A DNA stretch of 64,000 nucleotides from Micromonospora tulbaghiae (GTDB taxonomy: Bacteria; Actinomycetota; Actinomycetes; Mycobacteriales; Micromonosporaceae), in NCBI RefSeq assembly GCF_900091605.1, contig NZ_FMCQ01000001.1, forward strand, positions 62,001 through 126,000, written 5' to 3'. The notes beneath the pieces were generated by a model. It saw only the letters and a program-made list of their open reading frames with translations. It searched no databases and had not been told where the DNA came from. The position numbers and the translations under genes are program-made. Within the stretch, counting starts at the first letter, position 1; each line of letters opens with the position of its first letter. Below, one piece after another: positions 1 through 15,538 of the stretch.

Positions 1-568
1 AGTCCTCGCCGTCGACCACCTCGGGGCGGCGCACCTGCTTGCCCCACGAGTACGCCACCGCCCGGCTGTCCCGGACCAGGTGCAGCACCCGCAGGTCGAG
101 CCCCTCGGCCCAGCGCAGGGCGAAGGCGAGCGAGGCGTGCTTGCTGGAGTCCACCACCACCCGTGCGCCGGTCACCGACAGCGCGGCCCGGTAGATCCGG
201 GTGTACAGGTCGGCGTAGCGGCGCACGTCGGCCAGCTGCTCCGGCGGGAGCGCGTCCTTGGCGAGCCGGGGGATGTGCCGGGTCCGGTCGACGCGGTCCT
301 TGAGCGCCAGCACGTCGTCCCGGTCGACCGCGGCCCAGCCGCCGAACGCCTGGTCGCCGACCTGCCGCCAGAACGGGCAGGCGGTGAACCGCTCACCGCA
401 GCCGCAGCGCTCGTCGGCGCCGAGCGCCCGCTCCCACAGGTGCACCACCTCACCGACGGCACACACGTCGGCGCTCTGCGCCAGCAGCAGTTCCAGCAGC
501 GTGGAACCGCTGCGGCCGAGGCCGCCGACGAAGAGGACCCGCGGCGGTGCCGGATCCGGGGCGCTCAT
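1..568 (-). CDS. Sulfotransferase family protein, 3' part beyond the window
   Basis: A PAPS-dependent sulfotransferase transfers sulfate to a sugar or other acceptor. The N-terminus carries the 5'-phosphosulfate loop GGLGRSGSTLL (about residues 15-25). The 3'-phosphate segment LVRDSRAVAYSW lies near residue 170, just before the gene leaves the window. The ATG at 568 overlaps the stop of the upstream glycosyltransferase (ATGA), so both are probably co-translated. A CxC-type cluster (ERCGCGERF, about residues 56-64) could bind metal or form a disulfide. It is one of three sulfotransferases within 11 kb. Family assignment is firm; the substrate is unknown. Confidence 0.85.
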   Translation of the reverse strand, partial: MSAPDPAPPRVLFVGGLGRSGSTLLELLLAQSADVCAVGEVVHLWERALGADERCGCGERFTACPFWRQVGDQAFGGWAAVDRDDVLALKDRVDRTRHIPRLAKDALPPEQLADVRRYADLYTRIYRAALSVTGARVVVDSSKHASLAFALRWAEGLDLRVLHLVRDSRAVAYSWGKQVRRPEVVDGED

Positions 569-1146
569 CCGCGACGCCCGACGGCTCGTTGCCGTACCCG
601 GCGCGCCACCAGCTCGTCGATCACCGCGCCGACCCGGGCGACCGCCTCGGCGCGCGGGTCCGGGCGGCCCGGGTCGGCGGCCAGGACGAACCGGCTCGGG
701 TCGGCCAGCCCTTCGTCCAGCGCGGCGAGCAGCTCCGCCTCGGACTCGCACAGCCGCACCATGCCGGCCGCGCCCAGGCGGCGGGAGAACAGCTGCTGGT
801 GGTTGTCGACGTGCTCGTCGTGCGACGGGTCGCGGGGCACCACGATCGGCAGGTGGCCGTTGCGCCGGGCCTCGGTGATGGTGGCCGGGCCGCCGTGGCT
901 GACCACGAGCGTCGACTCCGCCATCGCCCGCTGGAGTTCCTCGTGGCCGAGGAACGGGGTGGCCCCGGGCAGGGCCGGGGTGCGGCTGTGGCCGTACTGG
1001 AGGACCAGCCGGACCTCGGGCCGGGCCGCGTGCCAGCGCTCCAGCCAACCGACCAGCCGGTCGAAGCGGTGCACGTCGGTGCCGACCACGACGAGCACGT
1101 ACGGTGCCGCGGAACGCCGGTCCCGCTGCTGCGGAATGTGCGCCAT
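565..1146 (-). CDS. Glycosyltransferase catalytic subunit, PssE/Alg13-like (GT28 C-terminal domain)
   Basis: The 193-residue protein matches the C-terminal half of GT28 glycosyltransferases, which binds the nucleotide sugar. Visible hallmarks are VVVGTDVHRFDRL near the N-terminus, VSHGGPATITEA, and IVVPRDPSHDEHVDNHQ in the donor-binding lobe. Alg13-like proteins work only with an Alg14-like membrane anchor, and that partner is the gene immediately upstream. The chosen ATG at 1146 shares one base with the partner's stop (TGATG). An in-frame extension to 1203 would run into the partner gene and is not favoured. It probably adds a sugar to a lipid-linked polysaccharide precursor at the inner membrane face. 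Confidence 0.85.
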   Translation of the reverse strand: MAHIPQQRDRRSAAPYVLVVVGTDVHRFDRLVGWLERWHAARPEVRLVLQYGHSRTPALPGATPFLGHEELQRAMAESTLVVSHGGPATITEARRNGHLPIVVPRDPSHDEHVDNHQQLFSRRLGAAGMVRLCESEAELLAALDEGLADPSRFVLAADPGRPDPRAEAVARVGAVIDELVARRVRQRAVGRRG

Positions 1147-1622
1147 CAGAGCAGATTCCCCACGACGGTGGCCTCCGGGTACATCCGGCGCTGCTCGTCC
1201 CACTGCACGAGCATCGCGGAGAGGAAGGGACGGCAGAGCCGGGCGGTGAGCGTCGCGCTGTCGATCCGGTCGTACACCTCGATGTAGACCGTCGGGATCT
1301 TGCGCATCCGGGCCGCCACCACGAACGGCAGGGCGACCCCGGCGCCGGTGGTGACCACGGCGTCGACCTGGCGCCGGCGGATCACCTTCAACGCGAGGAA
1401 CGCGTTGCGTACCAGGTTCTTGACGTTGCGTGTGGTGGGGTGGTGCGCCCAGACCACGTCCTCACCGGCGAGCAGCGAGCGCGCGTCCGGGGTGTCGAAG
1501 GTTACCCATGCGCGGCGCCGGTCCCGGTACCACGGTTCCAGGGCCAGGAGCTGGGCCAGGTGCCCGCCACTGGAACCCACCAGCAGGACCTGCCCCGAGT
1601 CCTCGGTTGACCCGCTCACCAC
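1146..1622 (-). CDS. Glycosyltransferase membrane-anchor subunit, PssD/Alg14-like
   Basis: The 158-residue protein is the usual length for the Alg14/PssD half of a split GT28 enzyme. It begins with a nucleotide-binding-type segment VLLVGSSGGHLAQLLAL. It continues with TTGAGVALPFVVAARM and PTVYIEVYDR, all typical of this subunit. It recruits the Alg13-like partner encoded directly downstream and presents the lipid-linked acceptor. Start codons GTG 1622 and GTG 1619 are adjacent; a GGGAGG ribosome-binding site lies about 6 nt upstream. It is divergent from the Wzz-like operon across a 0.5 kb intergenic region. Confidence 0.87.
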   Translation of the reverse strand: MVSGSTEDSGQVLLVGSSGGHLAQLLALEPWYRDRRRAWVTFDTPDARSLLAGEDVVWAHHPTTRNVKNLVRNAFLALKVIRRRQVDAVVTTGAGVALPFVVAARMRKIPTVYIEVYDRIDSATLTARLCRPFLSAMLVQWDEQRRMYPEATVVGNLL

Positions 1623-2121: not shown

Positions 2122-3963
2122 ATGCCCTCACCCCATTTGGCCGAGAGCGACGCCGACGGTCTTGCCCTGATGGCATACCTGGGCTGGCTGCGCCGCCGCT
2201 GGTGGATCCTGCTGCTCGCCGCGGTCCTCGGGCTGGGCGGTGGGCTCGCGCTGAACCAGATCCAGGAGGCGCACTACACCTCGACCACCTCGCTGCTGGT
2301 GCGCCCGCTCGGCTCGGGCGCGGAGAGCAACCCCAACGCCAAGGTCAACCTCGACACCGAGGCCCAGGTGGTCCGATCCCTGGTGGTGGCCGAGCGGGCC
2401 AAGGCGCTGATGAAGGTCGACACCGGCGCCGACCAGCTCGTCAAGTCGGTGACCGTCAAGGTGCCGCCGAACAGCCAGATCCTCCAGGTGGCGTACGAGG
2501 CGAACAGCCCCGAGGGCGCCCAGTCGGGCTCGCACGCGTTCGCCCAGGCCTACCTGGACCTGCGCAAGGCCACCGCGCAGAAGGCGCTGGAGAACGAGAC
2601 CAACGCGCTCAAGCAGCAGATCGCCGACCTGAACAAGCAGTTGAGCGCGGTCGCCGGGCGCATCGCCGCGGCGCCGTCGAACTCGCCCGAGCGGGAGCGG
2701 GCCGAGGCCGAACGGAGCGTCCTGACCAACCAGCTCAACGGCCTGAACAACCGGCTCAGCCCGCTGGTCTCGGCCGGCTCCGACCCCGGCGAGATCATCT
2801 CCGACGCTCGCCTGCCGGAGCGGCCCAGCTCGCCGAACCGCACCCTCAACCTCGCCAGCGGCATGGGCGCCGGCCTGCTGCTCGGCATCGTGCTGGCGCT
2901 GGTGCTGGACCGGCTCGACACCCGGATCCGGCGCGGACGCGACATCTCCGACCGGGTCGGCCTGCCGCTGCTCGTGGAACTTCCGTCGCGGGTGCCCTCG
3001 CTGTCCGTCCTGCCGGCCACCCACCGGGCCTCCCGCGAGTTGGGCCGGCTGCGCAACGTGCTGCTGTCCGCGGTGCCCGAACCGGCACAGGGCGGACGCG
3101 GTCGCCAGCTGCTGCTCTGCGACGCGTCGGCCGGCACCGCGGCCGGGTTCGTCGCCGCCAACCTCGCCGCCTCGTACGCCCGCACCGGCCAGCAGGTCGC
3201 GCTGATCACCACCAAGCCCGACTCGGCGGTGGGCGCCATCACCGGCGTGGCCGAGGGGCGGCACAGCCTCGCCTCGGTGCTCCGCCGCGACGTGCCCCCG
3301 CTCAAGGCGCTGGCGCCGGTGCCGGGGCTCGGTCAGCTCCGGGTGCTGGTGCCGGGCGACCTGGACGCCGATGTCGAACTGCCGGTCGCCGGGCTGCTGG
3401 AGATCATGCACGAGCTGTCCGCGCGCTTCGACCACGTGGTGATCGAGACCGCGCAGCCGACGTTCGCCGTGGAGGCCCAGGCCCTGGGTCGGTACGTCGA
3501 CGCGGTCATCATGGTGGCCGAGGCGGGCAAGACCCGCAGCGGCGAGATCACCGCCGCCCTGCAGCAGTTCGAGCAGGTGAACGCGCCGGTGATCGGCGCC
3601 GTGCTGGCCCCGCGCCTGCCCGTCCCGGCCGGCGGTGCCGCCCGTCCGGCAGCGTCGGGCGGTTCCGGCAACTCGGGCAACTCGGGCGGATCGAGCGCGC
3701 CCGCGGCCCCGGCCAACCGGCCCAAGCCCCGGCCGAGCCCCGGCCCGTCCGCCGAGTCGACGATGGTGCTGCCGCGTATGCAGTCGTCCCGCCCCGGCCC
3801 GGCGAAGCCGGCACCGGGCAAGGCCACCCCGCCGCCGAACCCCGGCAACCAGGGCATGCCGGGCAAGCCGGCGCCGCTCAACGGCACCGGCGGCACGTAC
3901 CGCTCCCGCGGTGACGGCGACGGCCGCAGCTACGCCCTCGACTCCGGCGAGGACCTGGGGTGA
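2122..3963 (+). CDS. Wzz-type chain-length protein with degenerate BY-kinase-like domain
   Basis: The 613-residue membrane protein has a Wzz arrangement. A first membrane helix (about 28-43) is followed by an extracytoplasmic part with a heptad-rich stretch (about 150-235) and a second helix (about 243-265). A cytoplasmic P-loop-like domain (about 330-515) resembles bacterial tyrosine kinases. The Walker A position reads DASAGTAAGF, with no GK[ST], and the Walker A' position reads VALITTKPD, so ATP hydrolysis is doubtful. The tail (about 515-613) is Gly/Ser/Pro-rich with only two tyrosines. It should control polymer length with the Wzy-like protein two genes downstream. ATG 2122 has GGGAG about 12 nt upstream. 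The stop overlaps the next start (GTGA). Confidence 0.82.
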   Translation: MPSPHLAESDADGLALMAYLGWLRRRWWILLLAAVLGLGGGLALNQIQEAHYTSTTSLLVRPLGSGAESNPNAKVNLDTEAQVVRSLVVAERAKALMKVDTGADQLVKSVTVKVPPNSQILQVAYEANSPEGAQSGSHAFAQAYLDLRKATAQKALENETNALKQQIADLNKQLSAVAGRIAAAPSNSPERERAEAERSVLTNQLNGLNNRLSPLVSAGSDPGEIISDARLPERPSSPNRTLNLASGMGAGLLLGIVLALVLDRLDTRIRRGRDISDRVGLPLLVELPSRVPSLSVLPATHRASRELGRLRNVLLSAVPEPAQGGRGRQLLLCDASAGTAAGFVAANLAASYARTGQQVALITTKPDSAVGAITGVAEGRHSLASVLRRDVPPLKALAPVPGLGQLRVLVPGDLDADVELPVAGLLEIMHELSARFDHVVIETAQPTFAVEAQALGRYVDAVIMVAEAGKTRSGEITAALQQFEQVNAPVIGAVLAPRLPVPAGGAARPAASGGSGNSGNSGGSSAPAAPANRPKPRPSPGPSAESTMVLPRMQSSRPGPAKPAPGKATPPPNPGNQGMPGKPAPLNGTGGTYRSRGDGDGRSYALDSGEDLG

Positions 3964-4967
3964 ACCGCCGGCAGATGCTCCGTGCCGCGCTCGCCCCCGC
4001 CGTCGTCCTCGGCGTCGGGACGGGATGCAGCGAACCCGAACCCAAGCCCGGAAAGATCCAGGTGGCGGACCCGGGCGACGTCACCGCCTCGCCGTCCTCG
4101 GCGGCCCCGACGCAGAACCTGCCCACCGGCCCGCTGACCGGCGCGCCGATCGGCACCCCGGCCGCGGCCACCCGCCAGGCGGTCGCGGTGCCGCTGCGGG
4201 TGAGCCCCGCGACCACCCCGGCCGGCCTGGACGCCGCCGACCTGGTCTACGCCGAGTTCGCCGAGTCCGACACGCTGCACCTGACCGCCGTGTTCCACTC
4301 CAAGGACGCCGCCAAGATCGGCCCGGTCACCGAGATCCGGCCGGTCGACATCCGGTCGCTCGCGGTGCTGCGCCCGTTCGTCGGCTACGCCGGTGGCCCC
4401 ACCGGCTTCCTCTCCCAGTTCGAGAACTCCGACCTCGACGGCGTCACGCCGGACGACGACGGCAAGGTCTTCTCCGGCGACTACACCTCGACAGCCGCGC
4501 TGCTCAAGGCCGCCCCGAAGGGCGGCCAGCCGCCCTCTCCGCCGATCGACCACGCCGCCGAGGGCGACGCGCTCGCCGCCCGCGACCTCGTCCCCGCCAC
4601 CGAACTCTCCGTCACAGTGGCCGGCGGGCCGCCGATGGTCTGGCGGTACGACCAGGCGAAGTCCCTCTGGGCCGGCAAGGTCGGCAAGGTCACCGTGACC
4701 GCTGCCTCCGTCATCGTGCTGACGATGGAATACCGCACGCTGGATGTGCGCAAGCCGTCCCCGCGCTCACTGCCGTCGGCGAACGTCTTCGGCGAGGGCG
4801 CGGTCGTCGCGGTGTCCGGGCCGAACAGCGCGAAGGGCCGGTGGCGCAAGCCCGGCCTGGGCATGGTCTGCACGCTCGCCGACACCGGCGGCGACCTCCT
4901 GCATCCCCAGCCCGGCAACGCCTGGGTGATCTACGCACCGACCACCGCCAAGGTCTCCGTGAAATGA
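3960..4967 (+). CDS. DUF3048 (YerB-like) lipoprotein
   Basis: The 335-residue protein has a lipoprotein signal peptide with the lipidated cysteine at about residue 23 (VGTGC). A Pro/Thr-rich linker and the DUF3048 fold follow. Landmarks are VYAEFAESDTLHLTAVF and IGPVTEIRPVDI in the first half and GNAWVIYAPT near the C-terminus. The family's biochemical role is not established to my knowledge. Its position between the Wzz-like and Wzy-like genes, with GTGA and ATGA overlaps on either side, places it in the polysaccharide assembly complex on the outer face of the membrane. The GTG start is fixed by the overlap. Confidence 0.85.
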   Translation: MNRRQMLRAALAPAVVLGVGTGCSEPEPKPGKIQVADPGDVTASPSSAAPTQNLPTGPLTGAPIGTPAAATRQAVAVPLRVSPATTPAGLDAADLVYAEFAESDTLHLTAVFHSKDAAKIGPVTEIRPVDIRSLAVLRPFVGYAGGPTGFLSQFENSDLDGVTPDDDGKVFSGDYTSTAALLKAAPKGGQPPSPPIDHAAEGDALAARDLVPATELSVTVAGGPPMVWRYDQAKSLWAGKVGKVTVTAASVIVLTMEYRTLDVRKPSPRSLPSANVFGEGAVVAVSGPNSAKGRWRKPGLGMVCTLADTGGDLLHPQPGNAWVIYAPTTAKVSVK

Positions 4968-6448
4968 GCACCGCCACCCCGCCCCGCACCGCGCGCGGGA
5001 CGGTCCCGGTCGGGGCGGTGTCGCCGCCGGACGGGAACCGTCTCCGGCCGGTGACGGTGCGGCCGGAGGGCTGGTCGTGGCGGCTGCCGACGGCGTGGCC
5101 GCTGATCGGGGTCTTCCTGCTGTACCCGCTGTGGTGGGTGCTCGGGGTGTCGAGCTTCGTCTTCGTCATCTTCGCAGTGCCGATGATCTGGCAGATGCGC
5201 AAGCGCGGCCCGGTGCGGGTGCCGCCCGGCTTCGGGATCTGGATGGTCCTGCTGCTCTGGGTGTTCCTGTCAGTGGTCACCCTCGACCTCACCGCGCCGA
5301 ACACGCTGCCGCCCGGCGGCAGCGGCAAGTACATCGGCTGGGGCATCCGGCTCGCCAACTACCTCGCGATGACCGTGACGATGCTCTACGTCTACAACCT
5401 GCGCGACCGGGAGCTGTCCCAGCGCCGGATGGTCCGGCTGTTCGGGTTCATGGGCGTGGTCGTGGTCCTGGGCGGCTGGATCGGCTCGCTCTTCCCGAAC
5501 CTCACGTTCGTGGCGCCGCTGCGTTTCGTCCTGCCCCAGTCGATCGCCGGTCACCCGTACGTCACCTCCCTCATGGAGATCAAGTTCGCCCAGGTGCAGC
5601 AGGTGATCGAGGGAGAGGCCAGCTCGCCCCGCCCGTCCGCGCCGTTCACCTACACGAACTCGTGGGGCCAGAACACCGCGATCCTGCTGGTCTGGCTGAT
5701 CGTCGGCTGGGTCGTGCTGGGCAAGCCGCTGCGCCGTACCGCCGGCGTGGCCATCGCCCTGGCGGCGATCTTCCCGATCGTCTACTCGCTGAACCGCGGC
5801 CTCTGGATCGGTCTCGGCATCGCCGCCGCGTACGTCGCGCTGCGGCTCGCGCTGCGCGGCCGGATGGTGGTGCTCGGCGGGCTCGCCCTGGGGGTCGGGC
5901 TGATCGGGGTGCTGATCGTCGCCACACCGCTCGGCCGCACCTTCGACGAACGCCTCCAGAACGGGCACAGCGACGACATCCGGACCACGCTGTCCCAGGG
6001 CGCGGTCGCCGCGGCCAACCACTCGCCGGTCCTCGGGTACGGCGGCAACCGGGCGCTGATCGGCAGCAACCGGTCCATCGCCATCGGCAAGTCCGAGGAC
6101 TGCAAGCAGTGCGGCAACCGGGAACTGGGCAGCAACGGCCAGGTCTGGGCGCTGCTCGTCGGGCAGGGCTGGGTCGGCGCCATCTGCTACAACGCCTTCT
6201 TCATCTACTGCATCTGGCGCTACCGGCGCGACCACAGCGCGATCGGGATCGCCGGCACGCTCGTGCTCATCCTCATGCTGTTCTTCCAGTTCACCTACGG
6301 TGCGATGGAAGCGACACTCGCCTACGCCCTGATCACGGTCGCCCTGCTGGCCCGCAACGACCGGATCCGCCGGTCGCTCGGGCCGGCGCCACCCGAGGGC
6401 ACGATCGCCGGGCTACGGGCCCGACTGGAAAAGACCGGTGACCACTGA
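4964..6448 (+). CDS. O-antigen polymerase/ligase-like membrane protein (Wzy type)
   Basis: The 494-residue polytopic protein has about ten to twelve hydrophobic helices. A long extracytoplasmic loop lies in its second half (roughly residues 340-390), the layout of Wzy polymerases and WaaL ligases. This loop contains SKSEDCKQCGNRELG, whose cysteines may form a disulfide. Wzy proteins join repeat units on undecaprenyl pyrophosphate outside the membrane. Wzz-like and Wzx-like partners are in the same operon. ATG 4964 overlaps the preceding stop (ATGA) and its own stop overlaps the next ATG. Polymerase rather than ligase is inferred from context. Confidence 0.82.
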   Translation: MSTATPPRTARGTVPVGAVSPPDGNRLRPVTVRPEGWSWRLPTAWPLIGVFLLYPLWWVLGVSSFVFVIFAVPMIWQMRKRGPVRVPPGFGIWMVLLLWVFLSVVTLDLTAPNTLPPGGSGKYIGWGIRLANYLAMTVTMLYVYNLRDRELSQRRMVRLFGFMGVVVVLGGWIGSLFPNLTFVAPLRFVLPQSIAGHPYVTSLMEIKFAQVQQVIEGEASSPRPSAPFTYTNSWGQNTAILLVWLIVGWVVLGKPLRRTAGVAIALAAIFPIVYSLNRGLWIGLGIAAAYVALRLALRGRMVVLGGLALGVGLIGVLIVATPLGRTFDERLQNGHSDDIRTTLSQGAVAAANHSPVLGYGGNRALIGSNRSIAIGKSEDCKQCGNRELGSNGQVWALLVGQGWVGAICYNAFFIYCIWRYRRDHSAIGIAGTLVLILMLFFQFTYGAMEATLAYALITVALLARNDRIRRSLGPAPPEGTIAGLRARLEKTGDH

Positions 6449-7653
6449 TGGTGTTCCGCGTACCCCCGGACGGCGACGGCCGTGCCGCGTACCTCGGTGA
6501 ACTGGCCGGGCTGATCTGGCCCGCACCGGCCGAGCCCAGCCTGCGCCGCGGCGGCGCCGGCTGGGTGGTGGTGCCCTCGGCGGCCCGCCCCCGGCTGCTC
6601 GTGCCGACCGGCTCCGGCCGGGCGGCGGCGAGCGCGGTGCGGCACTCCACGGAGGCGGTCGGCCGCAAGGCCAAGCTGGTCCGGCAGGGGCTGTCCACCG
6701 CGTTCCGGCTCGGGCTGGGTCCGCTGGTGTTCCGCGACCGGCTGGTGGCCTACGGCGGCGGGCTGGACGCGTACCTGACCGAGGTGCTCGGTGAGCCGGC
6801 GCTGGTGAGCCTGCACATCGGGCCGGCCCGCGCGAACCGCAAGCCGGTGCTGCAACTGCTCGCCCCGGACGGCCGCGCCCTCGGGTACGCCAAGCTCGGC
6901 GTCGACCCGCTGACCCGCGCGCTGGTGCACGCGGAGGCGGACGCGCTGCGCCGCCTCGCCGAGGTGCCGCTCGGCCCGGTGGTGCTGGCCGGGGTACGCC
7001 ATCACGGCGACTGGCACGGCCACGCGCTGCTCGTGCAGGAGGCACTGCCGGTGCGGCTGCCCCGGGCCGCCCCGGCCGCCGCCGAAGCGGCCGAGCGCGC
7101 GGCCATGGTGGCGGTCGCCGGCTGTCTCGGCGTACGCCGGCAGTCGTGGGCGGGCAGCGGGCACGCGGCCCGGCTCACCGCCGCGGTGGACGCGCTCGGG
7201 CCCCGGCCGGAGGCCGGGCGGCTGCGCGCGGCGCTGAAGTCCGTCGCGGACGCCGACCCGGTGGTCGCCCTCGGCGCCTGGCACGGGGACTGGAACGGCG
7301 GCAACAGCGCGGTGCTGGCCGACGGCCGGGTGCTGGTCTGGGACTGGGAGCGGTTCGAGGCGGACGTGCCGGCCGGGTACGACGCGCTGCACCTGGCGGT
7401 GCAGAGCGCGATGAGCCACGACGGGGTGGAACCGGTCGAGGCGGCCCGGGCGCTGATCGCCGGCGCCGGCCGCACCCTGGCGCCGTTCGACCAGACCGGC
7501 GGGGGCGCCGATCTGGTCGCCGTGCTCTACCTGGTGGAGCTGGCGGCGCGCTACCTGCGGGACCGGCAGGCGGAGGCGGGTGCGCGACTGGGGCACGTCG
7601 ACACCTGGCTGCTGCCCGCCGTCGAGGAACACCTGGCCCGCCGGGCCGGGTGA
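6448..7653 (+). CDS. Aminoglycoside-phosphotransferase-fold kinase-like protein
   Basis: The 401-residue protein belongs to the APH/choline-kinase superfamily. It has the catalytic loop HGDWNGGN (about residues 279-286) and the Mg-binding segment WDWERF about 14 residues later. The N-terminal half is less typical and lacks an obvious glycine-rich loop. In this operon it could phosphorylate a sugar, an amino alcohol or a polymer end rather than an antibiotic; this is inference. ATG 6448 shares a base with the Wzy-like stop, so it is translationally coupled. The following sulfotransferase starts 17 nt downstream. Confidence 0.75.
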   Translation: MVFRVPPDGDGRAAYLGELAGLIWPAPAEPSLRRGGAGWVVVPSAARPRLLVPTGSGRAAASAVRHSTEAVGRKAKLVRQGLSTAFRLGLGPLVFRDRLVAYGGGLDAYLTEVLGEPALVSLHIGPARANRKPVLQLLAPDGRALGYAKLGVDPLTRALVHAEADALRRLAEVPLGPVVLAGVRHHGDWHGHALLVQEALPVRLPRAAPAAAEAAERAAMVAVAGCLGVRRQSWAGSGHAARLTAAVDALGPRPEAGRLRAALKSVADADPVVALGAWHGDWNGGNSAVLADGRVLVWDWERFEADVPAGYDALHLAVQSAMSHDGVEPVEAARALIAGAGRTLAPFDQTGGGADLVAVLYLVELAARYLRDRQAEAGARLGHVDTWLLPAVEEHLARRAG

Positions 7654-7670: not shown

Positions 7671-8534
7671 GTGACGCTGGCCAAGGAGCAGGCGCTCCGC
7701 GCGGTGAAGTCGGTGAGCCGGACGGTCGGCCGCTTGACCGCCGGTTCGCGGATGGTGCCGGGATTCCTGATCGTGGGGGCGCAGCGCTGCGGCACCACCT
7801 CGCTGTTCAAGACGCTCTCGCAGCATCCCGGTGTGCTGCCGCCCGCGTACCACAAGGGCGTGCACTACTTCGACATGGACTACCACCGGGGGATGAGCTG
7901 GTACCTCGGGCACTTCCCCACCACGAGCAAGGCCGAGGCGGTGAAGGCCCAGATCGGGGTACGCGGCATCACCGGCGAGTCCAGCCCGTACTACATGTTC
8001 CACCCGCTGGCCGGGCAGCGCATCGCCCGTGACCTGCCCTCGGTGAAGCTGCTGGTGCTGCTGCGCGACCCGGTGGAGCGGGCCTACTCCGCGCACTCGC
8101 ACGAGCTGGCCCGCGGCTACGAGACCGAGACCGACTTCGAGCGCGCGCTCGCGCTGGAGGAGTCCCGGACGGCGGGCGAGCGGGAGCGGATGATCAGCTC
8201 CGCGTCGTACGCCAGCGAGCACCTCCAGCACAACGCGTACCTGGCCCGGGGCCGCTACATCGAGCAGCTGGAGCGCCTGGAGGCGCTCGTCGGCCGGGAC
8301 CGCATGCACGTCATCGACAGCGACGACTTCTTCGCCGACCCGCGTCCCTCCTTCGACGCGGTCTGCGACTTCCTCGAGCTGCCCCGCTGGGCGGACATCG
8401 CGTTCGGCAAACACAACTCGCGCTCCCGTTCGCCCATGTCGGCGGAACTGCGCACCCGGCTGGAAGACCACTTCGCGCCGTACGACGAGCGGCTGGCGGC
8501 GTGGTGGGGACGCGTGCCGTCGTGGCGGCGGTGA
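7671..8534 (+). CDS. Sulfotransferase family protein
   Basis: The 287-residue protein is a complete PAPS-dependent sulfotransferase. The 5'-phosphosulfate loop is GAQRCGTTSLF (about residues 36-46) and the 3'-phosphate site is LLRDPVERAYSAH (about 129-141). It resembles the heparan-sulfate-type branch in the spacing of these motifs and in the NAYLARGRYIEQL segment. GTG 7671 is chosen because GAGGAG lies 7 nt upstream. GTG 7650, which overlaps the previous stop, is an alternative. The stop overlaps the flippase start. It probably sulfates the polymer's sugars or lipid-linked repeat unit in the cytoplasm before flipping. Confidence 0.88.
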   Translation: MTLAKEQALRAVKSVSRTVGRLTAGSRMVPGFLIVGAQRCGTTSLFKTLSQHPGVLPPAYHKGVHYFDMDYHRGMSWYLGHFPTTSKAEAVKAQIGVRGITGESSPYYMFHPLAGQRIARDLPSVKLLVLLRDPVERAYSAHSHELARGYETETDFERALALEESRTAGERERMISSASYASEHLQHNAYLARGRYIEQLERLEALVGRDRMHVIDSDDFFADPRPSFDAVCDFLELPRWADIAFGKHNSRSRSPMSAELRTRLEDHFAPYDERLAAWWGRVPSWRR

Positions 8535-10114
8535 CCCGGGCGGACGCCGGCGGCACCCCGACGCTCACCGCACCGCCCCCCGGGCCGGGCGCGGGGCTGG
8601 GCGGCGCGGCCCGGCAGGGCTTCGCCAACCTCGTAGGGGTCGGGCTGGCCGCGGTGGCCGGCTTCGGCCTGAACATCGTCATCGCCCGGGGCTGGTCGGT
8701 CCGCGAGGCGGGCATGTTCTTCGCGGCTACCAGCGCGTTCATGATCGCCGCGTCGGCGGCGCGGCTCGGCACCGACGTCGGCACCGTCTACTTCGTCAGC
8801 CGCCAGCGCACGCTCGACCGCCGCGACCAGATCCGGGGCACGATCCTGGTCGGGTTGCTGCCGGTGCTGGTGGTCGGCACCCTGCTCGGGCTGGCCGGCT
8901 GGCTGGCCGCACCGGCGCTGGCCCGGGCCACCATGCCGGAGGCCGGGCCGGAGGCGGTGACCGCGCTGCGCATCCTGCTGGCGTTCGTGCCGCTGGCCGC
9001 GCTCAACGACTACGCGCTCGCCGCCTGCCGGGGCTTCGGTCAGATGCGCCCGCTGCTGACGGTGGAGCGGCTCGGCCGCACGCTGGTGCAGTTCCTGGCC
9101 GTGGCGGTGGCCGCCTGGCTCGGGCTGTCCGCCACCGTCGCGCTGCCGCTGGCCTGGGTGGTGCCGTACCTGATCGCCGCGGTGGTCGCGCTGTTCTGGC
9201 TGAGCCGGCTGGTCGGCCGGGCCGGCCGGCAGGTGATCCGGCCGGTGCCGGCGCGTGAGCTGGCCGGACCGTTCTGGCGCTTCACCGGGCCGCGTGCGGT
9301 CAGCAGTCTGGCCGCCATCGTGGTGCAGCGGCTGGACATCGTGCTGCTCAGTGCGTTGCGCGGGCCGGCCGAGGCGGCCATCTACACGGCGGCGACCCGG
9401 TTCCTGGCGCTGGGCCAGCTCTCCAGCGTCGCGCTGTCCAGCTCGGTGCAGCACCGGCTGGCCGCCGCGTTCGCCCGCAACGACCGGGCCGAGGCGGGCC
9501 AGCTCTACCAGGTCGCCACCGGCTGGCTCGTGATCCTCTCCTGGCCCGCGTACCTGATCTTCGCGGCGTTCGCCACGCCGATGCTGGCGCTGTTCGGAGG
9601 CGACTACGCCGACGGCCGCCGGGTCGTGGTGCTGCTGGCACTGACCATGCTGCTGGCCACCGGCTGCGGCATGGTCGACATGGTGCTCAACATGGCCGGG
9701 CGCACTGCGTGGACGTTCTACAACGCGATGACCGGCACCGTGCTCAACGTGGTCGGCAACGTGGTGCTCATCCCGCGTTACGGCATCCTCGGCGCGGCCC
9801 TGGCCTGGACCGTCTCCATCCTGGTCACCAACCTGGTGCCGCTGACCCAGCTCTGGTGGTCGATGCGGCTGCACCCGTTCGGCGCCGGCACCCGCACCGC
9901 GATGGCGCTCGCCGTCGTGACGCTGGGCCTGCCGCTCGGCGTGGCGACCCTGCTCGGCGCCGCGCCGCTGGTGCTCGCGCTGGTGACCGCCGTCGGCCTG
10001 GCCGCGTACGTGGCGGGTGTCTGGCGCTGGCGGCGCACCCTGAACCTCGACGCGCTGCGCGCCCTGCGCCGTGGCCGTAACCGGGCCGGGGCGGACCCGG
10101 CCGCCCAGTCCTGA
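8531..10114 (+). CDS. Wzx-type polysaccharide flippase (MOP superfamily)
   Basis: The 527-residue protein has about twelve to fourteen hydrophobic helices. Its features are typical of Wzx/MurJ-like lipid-linked oligosaccharide flippases: an N-terminal GLNIVIARGWSVREAGMF region, charged intracellular loops and a C-terminal repeat of the fold. It would move the lipid-linked repeat unit across the membrane to the Wzy-like polymerase. GTG 8531 overlaps the sulfotransferase stop (GTGA) and is preferred. GTG 8501, 30 nt earlier, is the alternative and would overlap the upstream gene more deeply. Confidence 0.87.
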   Translation: MTRADAGGTPTLTAPPPGPGAGLGGAARQGFANLVGVGLAAVAGFGLNIVIARGWSVREAGMFFAATSAFMIAASAARLGTDVGTVYFVSRQRTLDRRDQIRGTILVGLLPVLVVGTLLGLAGWLAAPALARATMPEAGPEAVTALRILLAFVPLAALNDYALAACRGFGQMRPLLTVERLGRTLVQFLAVAVAAWLGLSATVALPLAWVVPYLIAAVVALFWLSRLVGRAGRQVIRPVPARELAGPFWRFTGPRAVSSLAAIVVQRLDIVLLSALRGPAEAAIYTAATRFLALGQLSSVALSSSVQHRLAAAFARNDRAEAGQLYQVATGWLVILSWPAYLIFAAFATPMLALFGGDYADGRRVVVLLALTMLLATGCGMVDMVLNMAGRTAWTFYNAMTGTVLNVVGNVVLIPRYGILGAALAWTVSILVTNLVPLTQLWWSMRLHPFGAGTRTAMALAVVTLGLPLGVATLLGAAPLVLALVTAVGLAAYVAGVWRWRRTLNLDALRALRRGRNRAGADPAAQS

Positions 10115-10142: not shown

Positions 10143-11075
10143 ATGACAAGCGACTCCCCCCTCGCCCCGCACTCCGGCCTGTCCACGGTGAAGGCCGCGA
10201 AGCTCGCCGCGGTCGGCCTGCTGGCGGACCGCAAGGAACGGCGCGAGCTGGAACGGCCGGTGGAGGGGGGCAGCCGCCGGCTCACCCTGAAGGTGGAGCG
10301 GCCGATCTTCATCCTCGGCGCCCCGCGCTCCGGCACCACGTTCCTCGGCAGTTGCGTCGGCGCGCTGCCGGACGTGTCGTACCACTTCGAACCGCGCCTG
10401 ACCAAGGCCGTCGCCCGCTGTGTCTACGAGGGAAGCTGGACGCCGCAGCGGGCCGCGCGCTACTTCCGCGGCTACTACGGCGCGCTGCTCGCCGCCTCCG
10501 GACACGGCGGCCTGCGGTTCGCCGAGAAGGACCCGGAGAACTGCTTCATCGTGCCGTTCCTGACCGAGGTCTTCCCGGACGCGGTCTTCCTGCACGTCTA
10601 CCGGGACGGGCGGGACGTGGCGGTGTCGCACGCCGAGCAGCCCTGGCTGAACGCCGCGTCCACGGGCACCGGTCGCAGTGGGCGGGGCGGTACGCCGTGG
10701 GGCGCCGCGCCCCGGTTCTGGGTGGAGCCGGAGCGGCGCGACGAGTTCACGCAGGTCTCCGACCTGGGCCGGTCGGCCTGGATGTGGCGGCGGTTCACCG
10801 GCAGCGCACTCACCCAGCTCGCCGAGCTGCCCGCGGAGCGGGTGCGGCACCTGCGATACGAGGATGTCGTCACCCGCCCCGCCGAGGCGGCCGAGGTCGT
10901 GGCCGACTTCCTGGAGGTCGGTGACCCGGCCGGGCGGGAGGCGCTGCACGCCCGCTTCGCCAAGGCGCGGCCGGGCTCGGTGGGGCGCTGGCGGAAGCGA
11001 CTGACCGAAAAGGATCTGGCCGACGTGATGGCTCAGGCCGGGCCGCTGCTGACGCAACTCGGCTACCCCACCTGA
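10143..11075 (+). CDS. Sulfotransferase family protein
   Basis: The 310-residue protein is the third sulfotransferase of the region. It has the phosphosulfate loop GAPRSGTTFLG (about residues 59-69) and the 3'-phosphate motif YRDGRDVAVSHAE (about 153-165). The sequence differs clearly from the other two, so it is not a recent duplicate, and a different acceptor or position on the polymer is likely. ATG 10143 has GGGA 6 nt upstream; ATG 10131 is an in-frame alternative without a ribosome-binding site. It ends the tightly coupled part of the operon: the next gene starts 120 nt later behind its own promoter-like TACCGT (11160-11165). Confidence 0.87.
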   Translation: MTSDSPLAPHSGLSTVKAAKLAAVGLLADRKERRELERPVEGGSRRLTLKVERPIFILGAPRSGTTFLGSCVGALPDVSYHFEPRLTKAVARCVYEGSWTPQRAARYFRGYYGALLAASGHGGLRFAEKDPENCFIVPFLTEVFPDAVFLHVYRDGRDVAVSHAEQPWLNAASTGTGRSGRGGTPWGAAPRFWVEPERRDEFTQVSDLGRSAWMWRRFTGSALTQLAELPAERVRHLRYEDVVTRPAEAAEVVADFLEVGDPAGREALHARFAKARPGSVGRWRKRLTEKDLADVMAQAGPLLTQLGYPT

Positions 11076-11195: not shown

Positions 11196-12263
11196 GTGGT
11201 ACGACGGTTACGACTGACGATGGCTGCCGTGCTGGGCCTGGCCTTGCTGGCACCGGCGGTGGCGGCCTGTGACATCGGCTCCGAACGGTCCGGCGAGGAG
11301 ACGACTGCCGCGCCGGCCCCGCCGACGGTGACGCCGCGGACCGCTCCGGTCCGCACCACCGGACGCGGGCCGGAGCCGCCCGAGAAGGGGGCCTGGCTCG
11401 GCACCTGGGTCAAGCCGCGGTTCCACAACGCCAGCGGGCGGGCCACGGCGTTCGACGATTTCAACCGGGCGGCCGGCGGCCAGCTCGCCATCGCGCACAT
11501 GTTCCACGAGTGGAACGAGCCGTTCCCGGGCGCCACCGAGCGGGCGTTCCAGGCGCAGGGCAAGCTCCAGATGATCTCGTGGCAGGGCACCGACACCCGG
11601 TCCACTGTCAGCGGCGTCTACGACTCGCTGATCCGGGAGCGCGCGAAGGACGTCAAGGAGTTCGGCGTCCCGGTGCTGCTGCGCTACCGGTGGGAGATGG
11701 ACCGGCCGAACCTGGCCGCGAGCATGCACTCCCCGGAGGACTACGTCGCCGCCTGGAAGCACGTCCGCGGCATCTTCACCGAGATGGGCGTCACCAACGC
11801 GGGCTGGGTGTGGTGCCCGCACGCCGACGGGTTCGCCGAGCCGCAGCGGCGGGCCGCTGACTACTACCCCGGCGACGACCAGGTCGACTGGCTCTGCGCG
11901 GACGTCTATCCCAGCCCGGAGTGGAACAGCTTCTCCAACCGGATGGACCACTTCATGGCGTTCGCCAAGAAGCATCCGCGGCCGGTCATCATCGGTGAGT
12001 ACGGCCTGACCCAGGACGGGCGGCCGGGCCAGCGGGCCGAGTGGATGCGCGAGGTCGGGCCGTACCTGAAGAAGCACCCGCAGATCAAGGCGGCTGTCTA
12101 CTTCGCCGCCCGGCAGACGGAGAAGCCGATCTACGACAGCACGTTCGGCAACGACCCGGAGAGCGAGCAGGTCTTCCGGGAGATGGCGACCGATCCGTAC
12201 TTCCAGCCACCGATGCCGGACCTGAGTGTTCCCGGAGGAACACCCTCCGTGTCCCCCAGGTGA
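11196..12263 (+). CDS. GH26-like glycoside hydrolase lipoprotein
   Basis: The 355-residue protein has a lipoprotein signal (LLAPAVAAC, lipidated cysteine about residue 25), a Pro/Thr-rich linker and a TIM-barrel-type glycosidase domain. The GH26-type acid/base site reads RYRWEMDRP (Glu about 167). The nucleophile strand reads VIIGEYGLTQ (Glu about 268). Such enzymes cut mannan-like or other beta-linked polymers. Beside a biosynthesis operon it could trim, release or edit the organism's own polysaccharide at the cell surface. GTG 11196 follows GGGGAGAGG by about 5 nt. Confidence 0.8.
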   Translation: MVRRLRLTMAAVLGLALLAPAVAACDIGSERSGEETTAAPAPPTVTPRTAPVRTTGRGPEPPEKGAWLGTWVKPRFHNASGRATAFDDFNRAAGGQLAIAHMFHEWNEPFPGATERAFQAQGKLQMISWQGTDTRSTVSGVYDSLIRERAKDVKEFGVPVLLRYRWEMDRPNLAASMHSPEDYVAAWKHVRGIFTEMGVTNAGWVWCPHADGFAEPQRRAADYYPGDDQVDWLCADVYPSPEWNSFSNRMDHFMAFAKKHPRPVIIGEYGLTQDGRPGQRAEWMREVGPYLKKHPQIKAAVYFAARQTEKPIYDSTFGNDPESEQVFREMATDPYFQPPMPDLSVPGGTPSVSPR

Positions 12264-12300: not shown

Positions 12301-12317
12301 TCGGCCAAAAAGGCCGA
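12301..12317 (+). terminator. Hairpin between the GH26-like and malectin genes
   Basis: TCGGCC-AAAAA-GGCCGA forms a perfect 6-bp stem with an A5 loop, 38 nt after the GH26-like stop. There is no T-run, so this may be a weak terminator or a processing site. Confidence 0.4.
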
Positions 12318-12451
12318 ACCCGGGTGGACGGGCGACGGCCGAATGCGAGAAGGTATTGCTCTCACGTCTGCGGTCGGTCGAGTGACGCCCCGCCTCACGT
12401 CGGCACCGACCACGATCGCAGCGCCTCCGACGTTTCCCCCCGGAGTAGCCT

Positions 12452-15400
12452 GTGGCTTCCTCAATCCTGAGACACCGCTCGGTGTCCGCCTTCGGCGCTG
12501 CCGTACTCGGCATCGCCACCTTGTTCACACCGGTGCCGGCGCTCGCCGCGCCGGCCACGGCGCCCGCGCCCGACCACAGCACGATGGTCGGCGAGGTGCC
12601 GTCGGACAAGACGCCGAACATCAACGACGGCAACGTCGTGGCCATCCACGACGCCGGCAGCAAGGTGATCGTCGGCGGCTCGTTCACCAACGCGCAGAAC
12701 CGGGGTTCCTCACCCACCCCGGTCGACCGCCGCGGCCTGCTCGCCTTCGACAAGGCGACCGGCAAGATCGACAACGCGTTCGCGCCTGTGCTCGACGGTG
12801 ACGTCACCGCGGTCATCGCCGGCCCGACCCCGGGCACGGTCTACGTCGCCGGCAAGTTCAACAAGGTCGGCGACAAGAACTTCCGCAAGCTGGCGCTGCT
12901 GAACGTCGCGGACGGCACCCCCGTCGACGGGTTCAAGGGCCCGGCGTTCAACGGCACCGTGAACGACATCGCGCTCGTCGACGGCCACCTGCTGGTCGGC
13001 GGCATCTTCACCACCGTCACCGCGACGACCAACCGCAACGGGCTGGCCTCGCTGAACCCGACCACCGGCGCGGTAGACGACTACCTCACCGTGTCGCTCA
13101 CCGAGCACCACAACTGGACCCCGACCAACAACGGGGCCTCGGCCGGTGTCGGCGTGGAGAAGTTCACCGTCTCGCCGGACGGCAAGCACCTCGTCGTGAT
13201 CGGCAACTTCAAGAAGGCCGACGACGTGGTGCACGACCAGATCGTGCGGATCAACCTGGGCGCCAGCTCGGCCACGATCGCCGACTGGAACACCGACGGC
13301 TACTCCGCGGCCTGCAAGTACGCCGCGTTCGACTCGTGGGTGCGCGACATCCAGTTCTCCCCGGACAGCAAGTACTTCGTGGTGGTCACCACCGGCGCGT
13401 CGTACCCCGGCACGCTCTGCGACTCCGCGGCCCGCTGGGAGACCGACGCCACCGGCGACGGCCAGAAGCCGACCTGGACGAACTTCTCCGGCGGCGACAC
13501 GTTCCTCTCCGTCGGCATCAGCGAGAAGGCCATCTACGTCGGCGGTCACTTCCGCTGGTCGAACAACCCGCTGGCCCGCGACAAGGCCGGACCGGGCGCG
13601 GTGCCGCGGGCCAGCATCGCGGCGCTCGACCCGGTGAGCGGCCTGCCGCTGTCCTGGAACCCGGGCCGCCACCCGCGCGGCTACGGCGTCACCGAGATGC
13701 TGGTGACCCCGGAGGGCCTCTGGATGGGCAGCGACCAGGAGTACATCGGCAACTTCGACTACCAGCGCAAGCGGCTCGCCTTCTTCCCGCTGGACGGCGG
13801 CAACGCCCCGCACTCGACCAGCACGAAGGGTCTGCCGGGCAACGTCTACCAGGCCGGGCGCGCGGCGCAGACCGAGGTGCTCTACCGGGTCAACGCCGGT
13901 GGTCCGGCCATCCCGGCCACCGACGGCGGGCCGGACTGGGCCGCCGACAGCGCCACCGAGCCCAGCCCGTACCACAACACGGGCAACCAGGTCACCAGCT
14001 ACACCACGAACGCGACGTTCGACGCCACCGTGCCGGCGAGCACGCCGGCCACGCTGTTCAACACCGAGCGGTGGGACGAGGCGACCGCGCCGGACATGCA
14101 GTGGGACATCCCGGTCGCGGCCGGCACCCGGGTCGACGTCCGGATCTACATGGGCAACCGCTGGTCCGGCACGAGCAAGCCGGGCGCCCGCAAGTTCGAC
14201 GTCAGCGTCGACGGCGTGCTCAAGCTGAACGACTTCGACCCGGTCGTCGCGGCCGGCGGGACCGACCGCGGCACCATGCAGTCCATCTCGGTGGTCAGCG
14301 ACGGCGTGGTCGACATCGACTTCGGCCGGGTGCTCCAGAACCCGCTGCTGCACGGCATCGAGATCGTCAAGACCGCGCCCACGCCGGACGCCTCGGACGT
14401 GCTCTACCGGGTCAACGCGGGTGGCGACCAGCTGGCGGCGCCGAGCGGCCCGGCCTGGGCCGCGGACACCGCCGCCGCGCCGAGCACCTACCACAACGCC
14501 GGCAACCAGGTGACCAGCTACACCACGAACGCCTCGCTCGACGGCACGGTGCCGTCGGGCACGCCGGTCGAGCTGTTCAACGCGGAGCGGTGGGACGAGT
14601 CGCCCGCGCCGGACATGCAGTGGGACTTCCCGGTCCCGGCCGGCACGCCGGTGCAGGTGCGTCTCTACCTGGCGAACCGCTGGGCCGGCACCGCCACCGC
14701 CGGCAAGCGCAAGTTCAACGTGACCATCGACGGCGTGGTCAAGCTGAGCAACTTCGACCCGATCGCCGCGATCGGCGCCACCAACCGGGGCACCATGCGC
14801 GCGTTCCCGATCACCAGTGACGGCAACATCGACATCGACTTCGGTCGCGTCCTGGAGAACCCGCTGGTGCAGGGCATCGAGATCGTCAAGCTGCCCCCGG
14901 TGCCGCCGGCCACCACCGTCGACAGCATCACCAAGCGCACGTACGACGGTGCTACCTCGGTCGGCAACGCGATGTCGGTGCCGAACGGCGACAACACCGG
15001 CTGGTCGAAGATCAAGGGCGCGTTCTGGGTCGGTGGTGACCTGTTCTACGGCGTCGGCGGCGACCTCTACAAGCGCTCGTTCGACGGCAGCGAGTTCGGC
15101 ACCGCCAAGAAGCTCGACCCGTACCACGACGCCAAGTGGGACACGGTCGTCACCGGCTCCGCGCCGGAGGGCTCCACGTACGCCGGCATGACCGGCAACT
15201 TCGCCGCGGAGCTGCCGAACGTGACCGCGATGTTCTACAAGAGCGGCCGGATCTACTACTCGCTGGCCGGTCAGAGCACGCTGTTCTGGCGCGGGTTCGC
15301 GCCGGACACCGGCACCGTCGGCGCCGAGCGCAACACGGTCACCGGCACCACCGCCTTCGCCGACGCGGGCGGCCTGTTCCTGGACGGCGACAAGCTCTAC

Positions 15401-15538
15401 GTCGTCTCCCGGAGCACCGGCAACCTGTCCTCGATGGCGTGGTCGGACGGCGTGCCGACCGGCTCCGCCACGGTGCGCAGCGGTCCGGGCGTCGACGACG
15501 TGGACTGGCGCGGCACCTCGGTCTTCGTCGGCCCCTGA
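12452..15538 (+). CDS. Large secreted protein with beta-propeller region and two malectin domains
   Basis: The 1028-residue protein has a signal peptide (cleavage near ALA-AP, about residue 33). A beta-propeller-like region follows (about 50-460) with repeated units of the VIVGGSFTN, VYVAGKFNKV and IYVGGHFRW kind. Two tandem malectin-type carbohydrate-binding domains come next (about 475-645 and 650-820), each starting VLYRVNAGG. A C-terminal domain (about 835-1028) looks propeller-like again. The two malectin repeats are about 520 bp apart and very similar even at DNA level. It probably binds the extracellular polymer. GTG 12452 has GGAG 6 nt upstream. It is the last gene before a perfect hairpin terminator. 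Confidence 0.82.
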   Translation: MASSILRHRSVSAFGAAVLGIATLFTPVPALAAPATAPAPDHSTMVGEVPSDKTPNINDGNVVAIHDAGSKVIVGGSFTNAQNRGSSPTPVDRRGLLAFDKATGKIDNAFAPVLDGDVTAVIAGPTPGTVYVAGKFNKVGDKNFRKLALLNVADGTPVDGFKGPAFNGTVNDIALVDGHLLVGGIFTTVTATTNRNGLASLNPTTGAVDDYLTVSLTEHHNWTPTNNGASAGVGVEKFTVSPDGKHLVVIGNFKKADDVVHDQIVRINLGASSATIADWNTDGYSAACKYAAFDSWVRDIQFSPDSKYFVVVTTGASYPGTLCDSAARWETDATGDGQKPTWTNFSGGDTFLSVGISEKAIYVGGHFRWSNNPLARDKAGPGAVPRASIAALDPVSGLPLSWNPGRHPRGYGVTEMLVTPEGLWMGSDQEYIGNFDYQRKRLAFFPLDGGNAPHSTSTKGLPGNVYQAGRAAQTEVLYRVNAGGPAIPATDGGPDWAADSATEPSPYHNTGNQVTSYTTNATFDATVPASTPATLFNTERWDEATAPDMQWDIPVAAGTRVDVRIYMGNRWSGTSKPGARKFDVSVDGVLKLNDFDPVVAAGGTDRGTMQSISVVSDGVVDIDFGRVLQNPLLHGIEIVKTAPTPDASDVLYRVNAGGDQLAAPSGPAWAADTAAAPSTYHNAGNQVTSYTTNASLDGTVPSGTPVELFNAERWDESPAPDMQWDFPVPAGTPVQVRLYLANRWAGTATAGKRKFNVTIDGVVKLSNFDPIAAIGATNRGTMRAFPITSDGNIDIDFGRVLENPLVQGIEIVKLPPVPPATTVDSITKRTYDGATSVGNAMSVPNGDNTGWSKIKGAFWVGGDLFYGVGGDLYKRSFDGSEFGTAKKLDPYHDAKWDTVVTGSAPEGSTYAGMTGNFAAELPNVTAMFYKSGRIYYSLAGQSTLFWRGFAPDTGTVGAERNTVTGTTAFADAGGLFLDGDKLYVVSRSTGNLSSMAWSDGVPTGSATVRSGPGVDDVDWRGTSVFVGP

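Follow-up and report, generated by a model that had tools for sequence, protein, structure and literature searches.

A candidate sulfated-polysaccharide locus of the Wzx/Wzy type in Micromonospora, related to wps-1 of Actinoplanes missouriensis

Sulfated sugar polymers are familiar from animals and algae. We analysed a candidate bacterial locus for such a polymer in a 64,000-nucleotide stretch of Micromonospora tulbaghiae DNA (G000:C9:62001-126000 of a 6.49 Mb genome; "the window" means this whole stretch), where three genes for sulfotransferases (ST1, ST2 and ST3) lie among genes of the Wzx/Wzy route of polysaccharide synthesis. The closest described system is wps-1 of Actinoplanes missouriensis (wpsA-K, AMIS_7280-7380), reported by Tezuka and Ohnishi in June 2026 as a predicted cluster for a sulfated extracellular polysaccharide (EPS) that is needed for normal sporangia (PMC13390465).

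The wps-1 products comprise a Wzz protein (WpsK), a Wzy polymerase (WpsJ), a kinase-like protein (WpsI), a heparan-sulfate-type sulfotransferase (WpsH), a Wzx flippase (WpsG), a methyltransferase (WpsF), a GH26 protein (WpsE), a DUF4262 protein (WpsD), a GT26 glycosyltransferase (WpsC), a second sulfotransferase (WpsB) and a GT2 glycosyltransferase (WpsA) (PMC13390465). Deleting the whole cluster gave squashed sporangia and a spore release of 10^3 vs 10^7, and loss of wpsA, C, G, H, I, J or K alone gave the same sporangium shape. Spore release fell to 10^2-10^6 vs 10^8 after deletion of wpsA, C, F, G, H, I, J, K or AMIS_7390 (10^7 for wpsB); loss of wpsE was mild and wpsD was dispensable. The cluster becomes active at an early stage of sporangium formation, and mycelial growth of the mutants is normal. 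AMIS_7390, a sulfate adenylyltransferase/adenosine 5'-phosphosulfate kinase (Sat/APS kinase) gene beside wpsK, was not counted in the cluster by the authors, who found the severe sporangium defect of its deletion unexpected and placed it alongside sulfur amino-acid synthesis (PMC13390465).

Elsewhere in bacteria, sulfate was measured in synechan, the product of the xss cluster of Synechocystis sp. PCC 6803 (PMC8205485), and the pairing of sulfotransferase genes with cysN/cysD/cysC has been called a hallmark of sulfated polysaccharide synthesis by those who described the capsule cluster of Vibrio sp. KMM 8419 (PMC11641403). Bacterial sulfated polysaccharides were stated to be reported from cyanobacteria only (PMC13390465); this marine Vibrio capsule and a Cobetia capsule are counter-examples. 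A literature search by title and abstract opening, with subscription papers mostly outside it, found no report of a sulfated polysaccharide of Micromonospora.

We conclude that the window holds a Micromonospora version of the wps-1 kind of locus, a kind known since 2026, and that its product is very probably a sulfated polysaccharide of the cell surface or the extracellular space, made by the Wzx/Wzy route. A sulfated Wzx/Wzy polysaccharide is what the initial annotation had proposed, and this reading is supported by synteny, by linkage to genes supplying 3'-phosphoadenosine 5'-phosphosulfate (PAPS) and by the tested relative, from which we infer the sulfate on the polymer. Such polymers are hardly known from Gram-positives. 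The proposal is not new any longer, wps-1 having been published as a predicted sulfated-EPS cluster (PMC13390465).

Gene order and enzymes shared with wps-1

One retrieved locus (L184, genome G588) is almost certainly that of A. missouriensis; it reads Sat/APS kinase-Wzz-Wzy-kinase-ST2-Wzx-methyltransferase-GH26-DUF4262-GT26-ST1-GT2, matching PMC13390465, and its DUF4262, methyltransferase and Sat/APS-kinase domains were confirmed. The window locus keeps the order Wzz-Wzy-kinase-ST2-Wzx, with a DUF3048 gene inserted between Wzz and Wzy. Gene-by-gene identities to L184 are 36-53%, with 52% for ST1 and 49% for GT2, which are adjacent in both, and 40% for GH26. The two differ in that the window locus has a PssD/PssE pair and no GT26, methyltransferase or DUF4262 gene in the cluster; that it adds ST3, DUF3048 and malectin/propeller genes, with a CysQ-like gene alongside, in two divergent operons; and that the Sat/APS-kinase gene, adjacent in wps-1, is remote in the window genome.

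Domains were called by Pfam with curated cut-offs, by NCBIfam models with strict cut-offs and by PDB sequence searches. Gene calls and Pfam bear out the three sulfotransferase genes of the initial annotation, all three products passing the curated cut-off of a PAPS-dependent family (PF00685 or PF13469). ST1, of WpsB type, lies on the minus strand at -433 to 568 (G000:C9:61567-62568); it is cut by the window edge, its remainder was taken from the contig sequence, and it scores 56.8 bits against PF13469 (Sulfotransfer_3; cut-off 27) and 34.8 bits against PF00685. ST2 (7671-8534, plus strand), the heparan-sulfate-type counterpart of WpsH, scores 52.4 bits against PF00685 (Sulfotransfer_1; cut-off 22), and ST3 (10143-11075, plus strand) 80 bits against PF13469 (cut-off 27). 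In the PDB, the top match of ST2 is the bacterial sulfotransferase 3rnl (E 1e-22), followed by heparan-sulfate 3-O- and N-sulfotransferases (3-OST and NDST; 3uan at E 4e-15, 1nst at E 3e-13, the range extending to 4e-12). ST3 matches tyrosylprotein sulfotransferases best, weakly (E 3e-7), and ST1 matches CurM-type domains alone (E 0.003). Searches with PF13469 and PF00685 found six sulfotransferase genes genome-wide, three of them in this locus and one each on contigs C9, C14 and C15.

The gene between Wzy and ST2 (6448-7653, plus strand) is the counterpart of wpsI. Its product had no Pfam match at E 0.1 and no PDB sequence match at E 1 with an alignment profile, and its assignment to a known Pfam kinase was dropped, the likeness being one of fold alone. 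The AlphaFold model (predicted local distance difference test, pLDDT, 89.0; predicted template modelling score, pTM, 0.87) matched APH(3')-Ia, FN3K and the choline kinase LicA in Foldseek (top E 3.4e-5) and, in VIA at Z 14-15.8, Rv3168 (15.8), APH(4)-Ia (15.6), a fructosamine kinase (15.4) and choline kinases. The motifs HGDxxxxN and DWE are present, and 19 sequences share H279, G280, D281, N286, D299, W300 and E301 without exception. Judged from model and motifs, this is likely an active small-molecule or glycan kinase of APH/choline-kinase fold. A phylum sample gave matches at E 0.001 in 33 of 396 genomes, 16 of them weak (E >1e-20), so 17/396 were counted.

Conservation of the gene block and linkage to PAPS supply

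Of the 37 same-genus genomes, 13 have an ST2 orthologue of at least 78% identity, the window genome included, and the other 12 show the same gene order as far as their contigs extend. A chance grouping or mis-called frames are ruled out by this conserved order. Among the matches listed, the nearest named relatives at the locus are Micromonospora marina (ST2 98% identical) and M. chalcea (95%). A scan of named genomes returned at least 573 relatives. The gene order recurs in most of the top 80, which we retained; 20 of these loci are from Micromonospora and 60 from elsewhere, the latter including Pilimelia, Catellatospora, Dactylosporangium, Longispora, Modestobacter, Blastococcus, Streptosporangium, Microbispora, Nonomuraea, Actinomadura, Glycomyces, Phycicoccus and a Solirubrobacterales metagenome-assembled genome.

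For the 60 outside loci, neighbours lying up to 10 kb from ST2 were called by blastp (E 1e-5), some loci ending at contig ends. ST2 and Wzy were each called in 59, Wzz in 58, the kinase in 57 and Wzx in 54; GH26b-type genes in 49 (55 counting GH26a-type too) and malectin-type genes in 20; GT2 in 41, ST1 in 38 and PssD in 13. A homologue of the initiating transferase at 21674-23233 was found in 15. GT26 was called in 24 of the 60, and we regard GT26 and the methyltransferase as accessory in the wps-1 kind. The kinase gene adjoins ST2 in 75 of the 80 named loci (55/60 outside Micromonospora, 20/20 within). At family level, ST2 matches at E 0.001 occur in 183 of 200 genomes and 39 of 44 genera, distant paralogues counted in. 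The grouping of Wzy, kinase, ST2 and Wzx thus extends far beyond Actinoplanes, which is new here. The gene-order comparison that the initial annotation had suggested came out in its favour: sulfotransferases keep company with Wzx/Wzy genes in several actinobacterial orders.

Wzy was called together with an ST2 match in 59 of the 60 outside loci, and at least two sulfotransferases were called in 48. Both counts argue against the alternative that one or more of ST1-ST3 acts on a lipid, a protein or a small molecule, its operon position being incidental. What favours that alternative is the protein-tyrosine sulfotransferases that head the PDB matches of ST3, the presence of ST3 in 10 of the 20 named Micromonospora loci, the lack of an ST3 homologue in the wps-1 stretch (L184/L185), the three further sulfotransferase genes elsewhere in the genome, and the normal sporangium shape after wpsB loss (PMC13390465). 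ST3 was called in 7 of the 12 other same-genus genomes with the window-type locus. Loci without ST3, however, sometimes carry another sulfotransferase: an extra ST1-like gene replaces it in three of the five ST3-less genomes (L020, L022, L023), and an ST4 follows Wzx in L091-L093. We consider action on a substrate other than the polysaccharide very unlikely.

Individual loci showed further arrangements. In L024 (16620-18116), PssE-like and ST1 sequences read as a single 498-amino-acid frame, which would couple sulfation directly to that glycosyltransferase, and L056 holds an ST1-like frame of 480 amino acids. A conserved protein of about 310 amino acids (L020:15092-16030) adjoins the extra ST1-like gene in L020, L022, L023 and L024, with a similar protein in L027; by eye it resembles a GT14-type branching transferase, and the L020 copy has no Pfam match.

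Sulfation by ST1-ST3 would draw on PAPS. Genes for CysD, CysN or APS kinase lie within 10 kb in 40 of the 60 loci outside Micromonospora (APS kinase in 31 of the 60, CysN in 13, CysD in 12). Of the 41 loci that span 20 kb or more, 34 have such a gene; L087, L088, L124, L131, L134, L135 and L139 are the seven full-length loci that have none. CysQ-like genes were found in 10 of the 60 and TauE-type permeases in 8. L055 is the clearest case: beside GT2-ST1 it has genes for CysD, CysN, a TauE-type permease and an APS kinase. Control stretches carried PAPS-supply genes in 0 of 24 cases (462 kb), these stretches being all from Micromonospora, whereas the linked loci belong to other genera; one partly overlaps the locus (L003) and one spans just 4.8 kb (L054). 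A 25th stretch that had been scanned, L004, was removed, having been fetched for its APS-kinase gene.

That gene, a Sat/APS-kinase fusion on contig C17 of the window genome (L004:7156-8685), is away from the locus and has PF01583 and PF01747 both over cut-off. Its product shares 77% identity with the L184 copy; DeoR, GalT and, further on, IDH follow downstream in both genomes. The L184 cluster sits between Sat/APS kinase and DeoR, and these two genes adjoin directly in the window genome. Sat/APS-kinase and IDH genes flank the cluster in three Dactylosporangium loci too (L109, L111, L132). Most simply, the cluster would have stood next to its PAPS synthase originally and moved away from it in Micromonospora; a move in the opposite direction is an alternative. 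Since the Sat/APS kinase is the syntenic counterpart of AMIS_7390, PAPS supply is the likely reason for the sporangium defect of AMIS_7390 mutants; by synteny and orthology, AMIS_7390 likely supplies PAPS to WpsB and WpsH, and the conserved linkage would answer why its loss ruins sporangia. The initial annotation had proposed a search for cysD/N/C, which in the window genome was made for APS kinase and found one. PAPS-supply genes lie near many outside loci, and within 10 kb of ST2 in none of the 20 named Micromonospora loci. APS kinase matches at E 0.001 occur in 59 of 61 genomes searched, 58 of them over cut-off.

A candidate for disposal of the by-product, 3'-phosphoadenosine 5'-phosphate (PAP), is the CysQ-like phosphatase gene left of the window (-4005 to -3127, G000:C9:57995-58870; PF00459 100.9 bits; best NCBIfam model CysQ). 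It occurs at 76% identity or more in 10 of 13 genomes with the window-type locus and in 0 of 24 without (tail figure 8e-7, relatedness ignored), and the three window-type genomes that do not show it are assemblies of 380, 800 and 890 contigs. A paralogue at 61-65% identity is present in all 37 same-genus genomes (partial in G011), with the window genome copy at C9:946189.

Two locus types in Micromonospora

Thirteen of the 37 Micromonospora genomes carry the window type (type A), 22 carry another type elsewhere (type B), two carry neither (G013, G032) and none carries both; the tail figure for this zero overlap is 3e-8, relatedness ignored. Type B was called with the Wzy of that type as query at 49% identity or more, four of the 22 loci being read (L059, L060, L061, L064) and the remaining 18 genomes called from Wzy and ST2 matches alone. 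G008 and G012 hold a divergent type B (52-54%, with a second copy at 49%).

Both types contain GH26-like, malectin, Wzz, Wzy, Wzx, ST2-type and kinase-type genes, and the PssD and GT2 proteins of type B are 70-79%, and PssE 57-60%, identical to those of the window. Type B differs in having a single sulfotransferase (four loci read), a Wzy that is 27-28% identical, another chromosomal place and the order Wzy-Wzx-ST2-kinase-PssD-PssE-GT2. The common glycosyltransferases suggest a similar backbone for the two products; the differing Wzy proteins and sulfotransferase numbers suggest different linkage and sulfation.

When empty, the type A site consists of aminotransferase and NTP-transferase genes with small genes alone between them (20 of 20 stretches, from 20 of the 24 type-A-less genomes). 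Simple vertical inheritance of type A in the genus was rejected, its 13 genomes not forming one clade (approximately unbiased test, p-AU 0.008), in a quickly built tree from three flanking proteins, whose region adjoins the insertion site and has possibly recombined itself. On this tree the locus type changed at least three times (five if "neither" is a state). A third sulfotransferase-rich locus type, with Wzx beside an ST2-like gene and further sulfotransferases, was seen in one type A genome (L063 in G006) and one type B genome (L062 in G034).

Layout, predicted pathway and comparison with known systems

By gene calls, the window locus spans 15.5 kb as two divergent, tightly packed operons. 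Chain-length, polymerase, flippase, PssD/PssE-like and GH26-like genes are present as annotated initially, and so are the tight overlaps, which measure 4 bases (565-568, 3960-3963, 4964-4967), 1 base (1146, 6448) or 13 bases (8522-8534). On the minus strand, ST1 is joined by the PssE-like (565-1146; PF04101 58.5 bits) and PssD-like (1146-1622; PF08660 40.3 bits) halves of a two-part glycosyltransferase. For the former, the top NCBIfam models are WelK (63.2 bits) and then PssE (59.5 bits), both below their strict cut-offs of 400 and 120; the latter scores 100.8 bits against PssD, below the cut-off of 110. The divergent intergenic region on the gene map (1623-2121) is the probable promoter region.

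The plus-strand operon begins with a Wzz-type chain-length protein of the polysaccharide co-polymerase (PCP) class (2122-3963; PF02706 27.5 bits, cut-off 25.5; TIGR01007 50.6 bits, under the cut-off of 108), whose C-terminal domain resembles bacterial tyrosine kinases (BY-kinases); a Walker A motif (GxxxxGK[ST]) was sought in it and not found. A DUF3048 (YerB-like) protein follows (3960-4967; PF11258 50.1 bits, PF17479 33.2 bits; YerB in the PDB at E 0.0019), a candidate exported lipoprotein with an RRQML-plus-Cys signal read by eye. The Wzy-type polymerase (4964-6448) is 39% identical to the gene at the WpsJ position of L184, and its position agrees. The Wzx-type flippase (8522-10114) scores 43.4 bits against PF01943 (cut-off 28.2) and 45.1 bits against PF01554. 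After ST3 come a GH26 lipoprotein, the WpsE counterpart (11220-12263, alternative GTG start 11196; PF02156 29.3 bits, cut-off 20.2), and a secreted protein with beta-propeller and malectin domains (two stretches; 12452-15538; PF11721 88.3, PF17164 33.6, PF12768 30.2 bits), all on the plus strand. Clostridium thermocellum GH26 structures match the lipoprotein best (E 1.9e-17), and the glutamates in its RYRWE and IIGE motifs, which we take to be the catalytic pair, align with conserved glutamates of GH26 structures.

An initiating polyprenyl glycosylphosphotransferase, located 6 kb downstream of the malectin gene (21674-23233, plus strand; PF02397 228 bits; TIGR03025 403 bits, cut-off 295.6), is possibly the first enzyme of the pathway. 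Left of the window, GT2 (-1344 to -430, minus strand) adjoins ST1 on the gene map, and a GH26-like gene (-3025 to -1406) was called by eye, with no Pfam match. These three genes, together with the kinase-fold, DUF3048, malectin/propeller and CysQ-like genes, had been overlooked initially. Between malectin gene and initiating transferase, a set at 16669-19152 (plus strand) comprises a nucleotidyltransferase, an Fe-ADH_2 protein, presumably glycerol-1-phosphate-dehydrogenase-like, and a CDP-alcohol phosphatidyltransferase; its first gene has a counterpart of at least 86% identity in every one of the 37 same-genus genomes, and the set resembles an unusual CDP-alcohol or lipid pathway unconnected with the locus.

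Several observations weigh against a sulfated Wzx/Wzy polysaccharide. The authors of wps-1 themselves state that the sulfated polysaccharide of A. missouriensis awaits verification, and loss of the ST1-type gene wpsB left sporangia of normal shape with tenfold fewer released spores (PMC13390465). PAPS-synthesis genes lie within 10 kb of ST2 in 0 of the 20 named Micromonospora loci; the APS-kinase proteins of L055, L057 and L058 have no PF01747 sulfurylase match; and APS kinase was rejected as a discriminating marker, since all 37 same-genus genomes have it irrespective of locus type. The locus CysQ-like protein reaches 100.5 bits against the NCBIfam CysQ cut-off of 228.8, and given its paralogue it is not the sole candidate PAP phosphatase. 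The Wzy-like protein, at 30.0 bits, falls slightly under the PF04932 cut-off of 31.7, and the genome has three PF02397 genes besides that of the candidate chain starter. A repeat unit containing galactofuranose, an idea raised for wps-1 (PMC13390465), is unsupported, a PF03275 mutase not being found in the genome. The 60 outside loci are related to one another and hence not independent; a called kinase is missing in three, and one of these, L130, is also without Wzy and Wzx, so ST2-type genes occur outside such clusters sometimes.

With roles assigned from protein family and gene order, the pathway may run as follows. A PF02397 enzyme, perhaps that at 21674-23233, would load hexose phosphate onto undecaprenyl phosphate, and GT2 and the PssD/PssE pair would add sugars. 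In the cytosol, ST1, ST2 and ST3 would each put one sulfate from PAPS on the lipid-linked repeat unit; the PAPS would come from the Sat/APS-kinase fusion on contig C17, and the CysQ-like enzyme left of the locus would clear the by-product PAP. The kinase-fold protein would phosphorylate the repeat unit or a decoration. Wzx would flip the unit and Wzy polymerise it under control of the Wzz-type protein, and outside the cell the GH26 protein may trim the chain and the malectin/propeller protein bind it.

By analogy with wps-1, the polymer probably has its place in the formation of spores or of a surface matrix. Micromonospora forms single spores and no sporangia, so a spore or hyphal sheath is expected instead of a sporangium matrix. 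A mainly vegetative capsule or biofilm polysaccharide, with no sporulation role in Micromonospora, seems to us rather doubtful. It would suit the homologous loci in Modestobacter, Blastococcus and Phycicoccus, which are not known to form sporangia. It would also suit the report that the sporangium-matrix hydrolases GimA and GimB were not found in Micromonospora (PMC12691653, accessible portion); the sole tested relative found, however, shows early-sporangium expression and a developmental phenotype (PMC13390465). That the sulfated polymer is instead a wall-bound glycopolymer, joined to peptidoglycan by LytR-CpsA-Psr ligases, and not a free sheath or matrix, is unlikely. Two neighbouring LytR-CpsA-Psr genes do lie in the window (39245-40459 and 40858-41574, plus strand), and the GH26 and DUF3048 proteins appear membrane-anchored by eye, but the ligase genes are some 24 kb from the locus and such genes are common in Gram-positives. 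In A. missouriensis, moreover, the effect was on the sporangium and spared mycelial growth (PMC13390465).

We give even chances to a broader proposal: that polysaccharides with sulfate, and perhaps with phosphate added by the near-constant kinase-fold partner, are a general material of surfaces or spore matrices across actinobacteria, filamentous ones and others, a bacterial counterpart of glycosaminoglycans made by one ancient module (Wzy-kinase-ST2-Wzx with PAPS supply and PAP disposal). Its two Micromonospora versions, chemically different and with three sulfotransferases or one, would be mutually exclusive in the manner of capsule types. Sulfate on the polymer would mean that polyanionic matrices are produced by a large group of soil bacteria known for their antibiotics, and that the loci hold new heparan-sulfate-type carbohydrate sulfotransferases and a new candidate glycan kinase.

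Like the window locus, the capsule cluster of Vibrio sp. KMM 8419 has sulfotransferases in a polysaccharide locus, there with cysN/cysD/cysC; it differs in being Gram-negative, in export by an ABC transporter and in its solved sulfated rhamnose-glucose polymer (PMC11641403). The xss cluster is likewise a Wzx/Wzy cluster with two sulfotransferases of different subfamilies (PMC8205485); xss is cyanobacterial, with eight glycosyltransferases and its own regulators, and the accessible text mentions no kinase-fold or GH26 gene for it (PMC8205485). Compared with what was reported for wps-1 (PMC13390465), our results add the wider conservation of the gene block, the linkage to PAPS genes outside Micromonospora, the syntenic Sat/APS kinase and the two exclusive locus types of Micromonospora.

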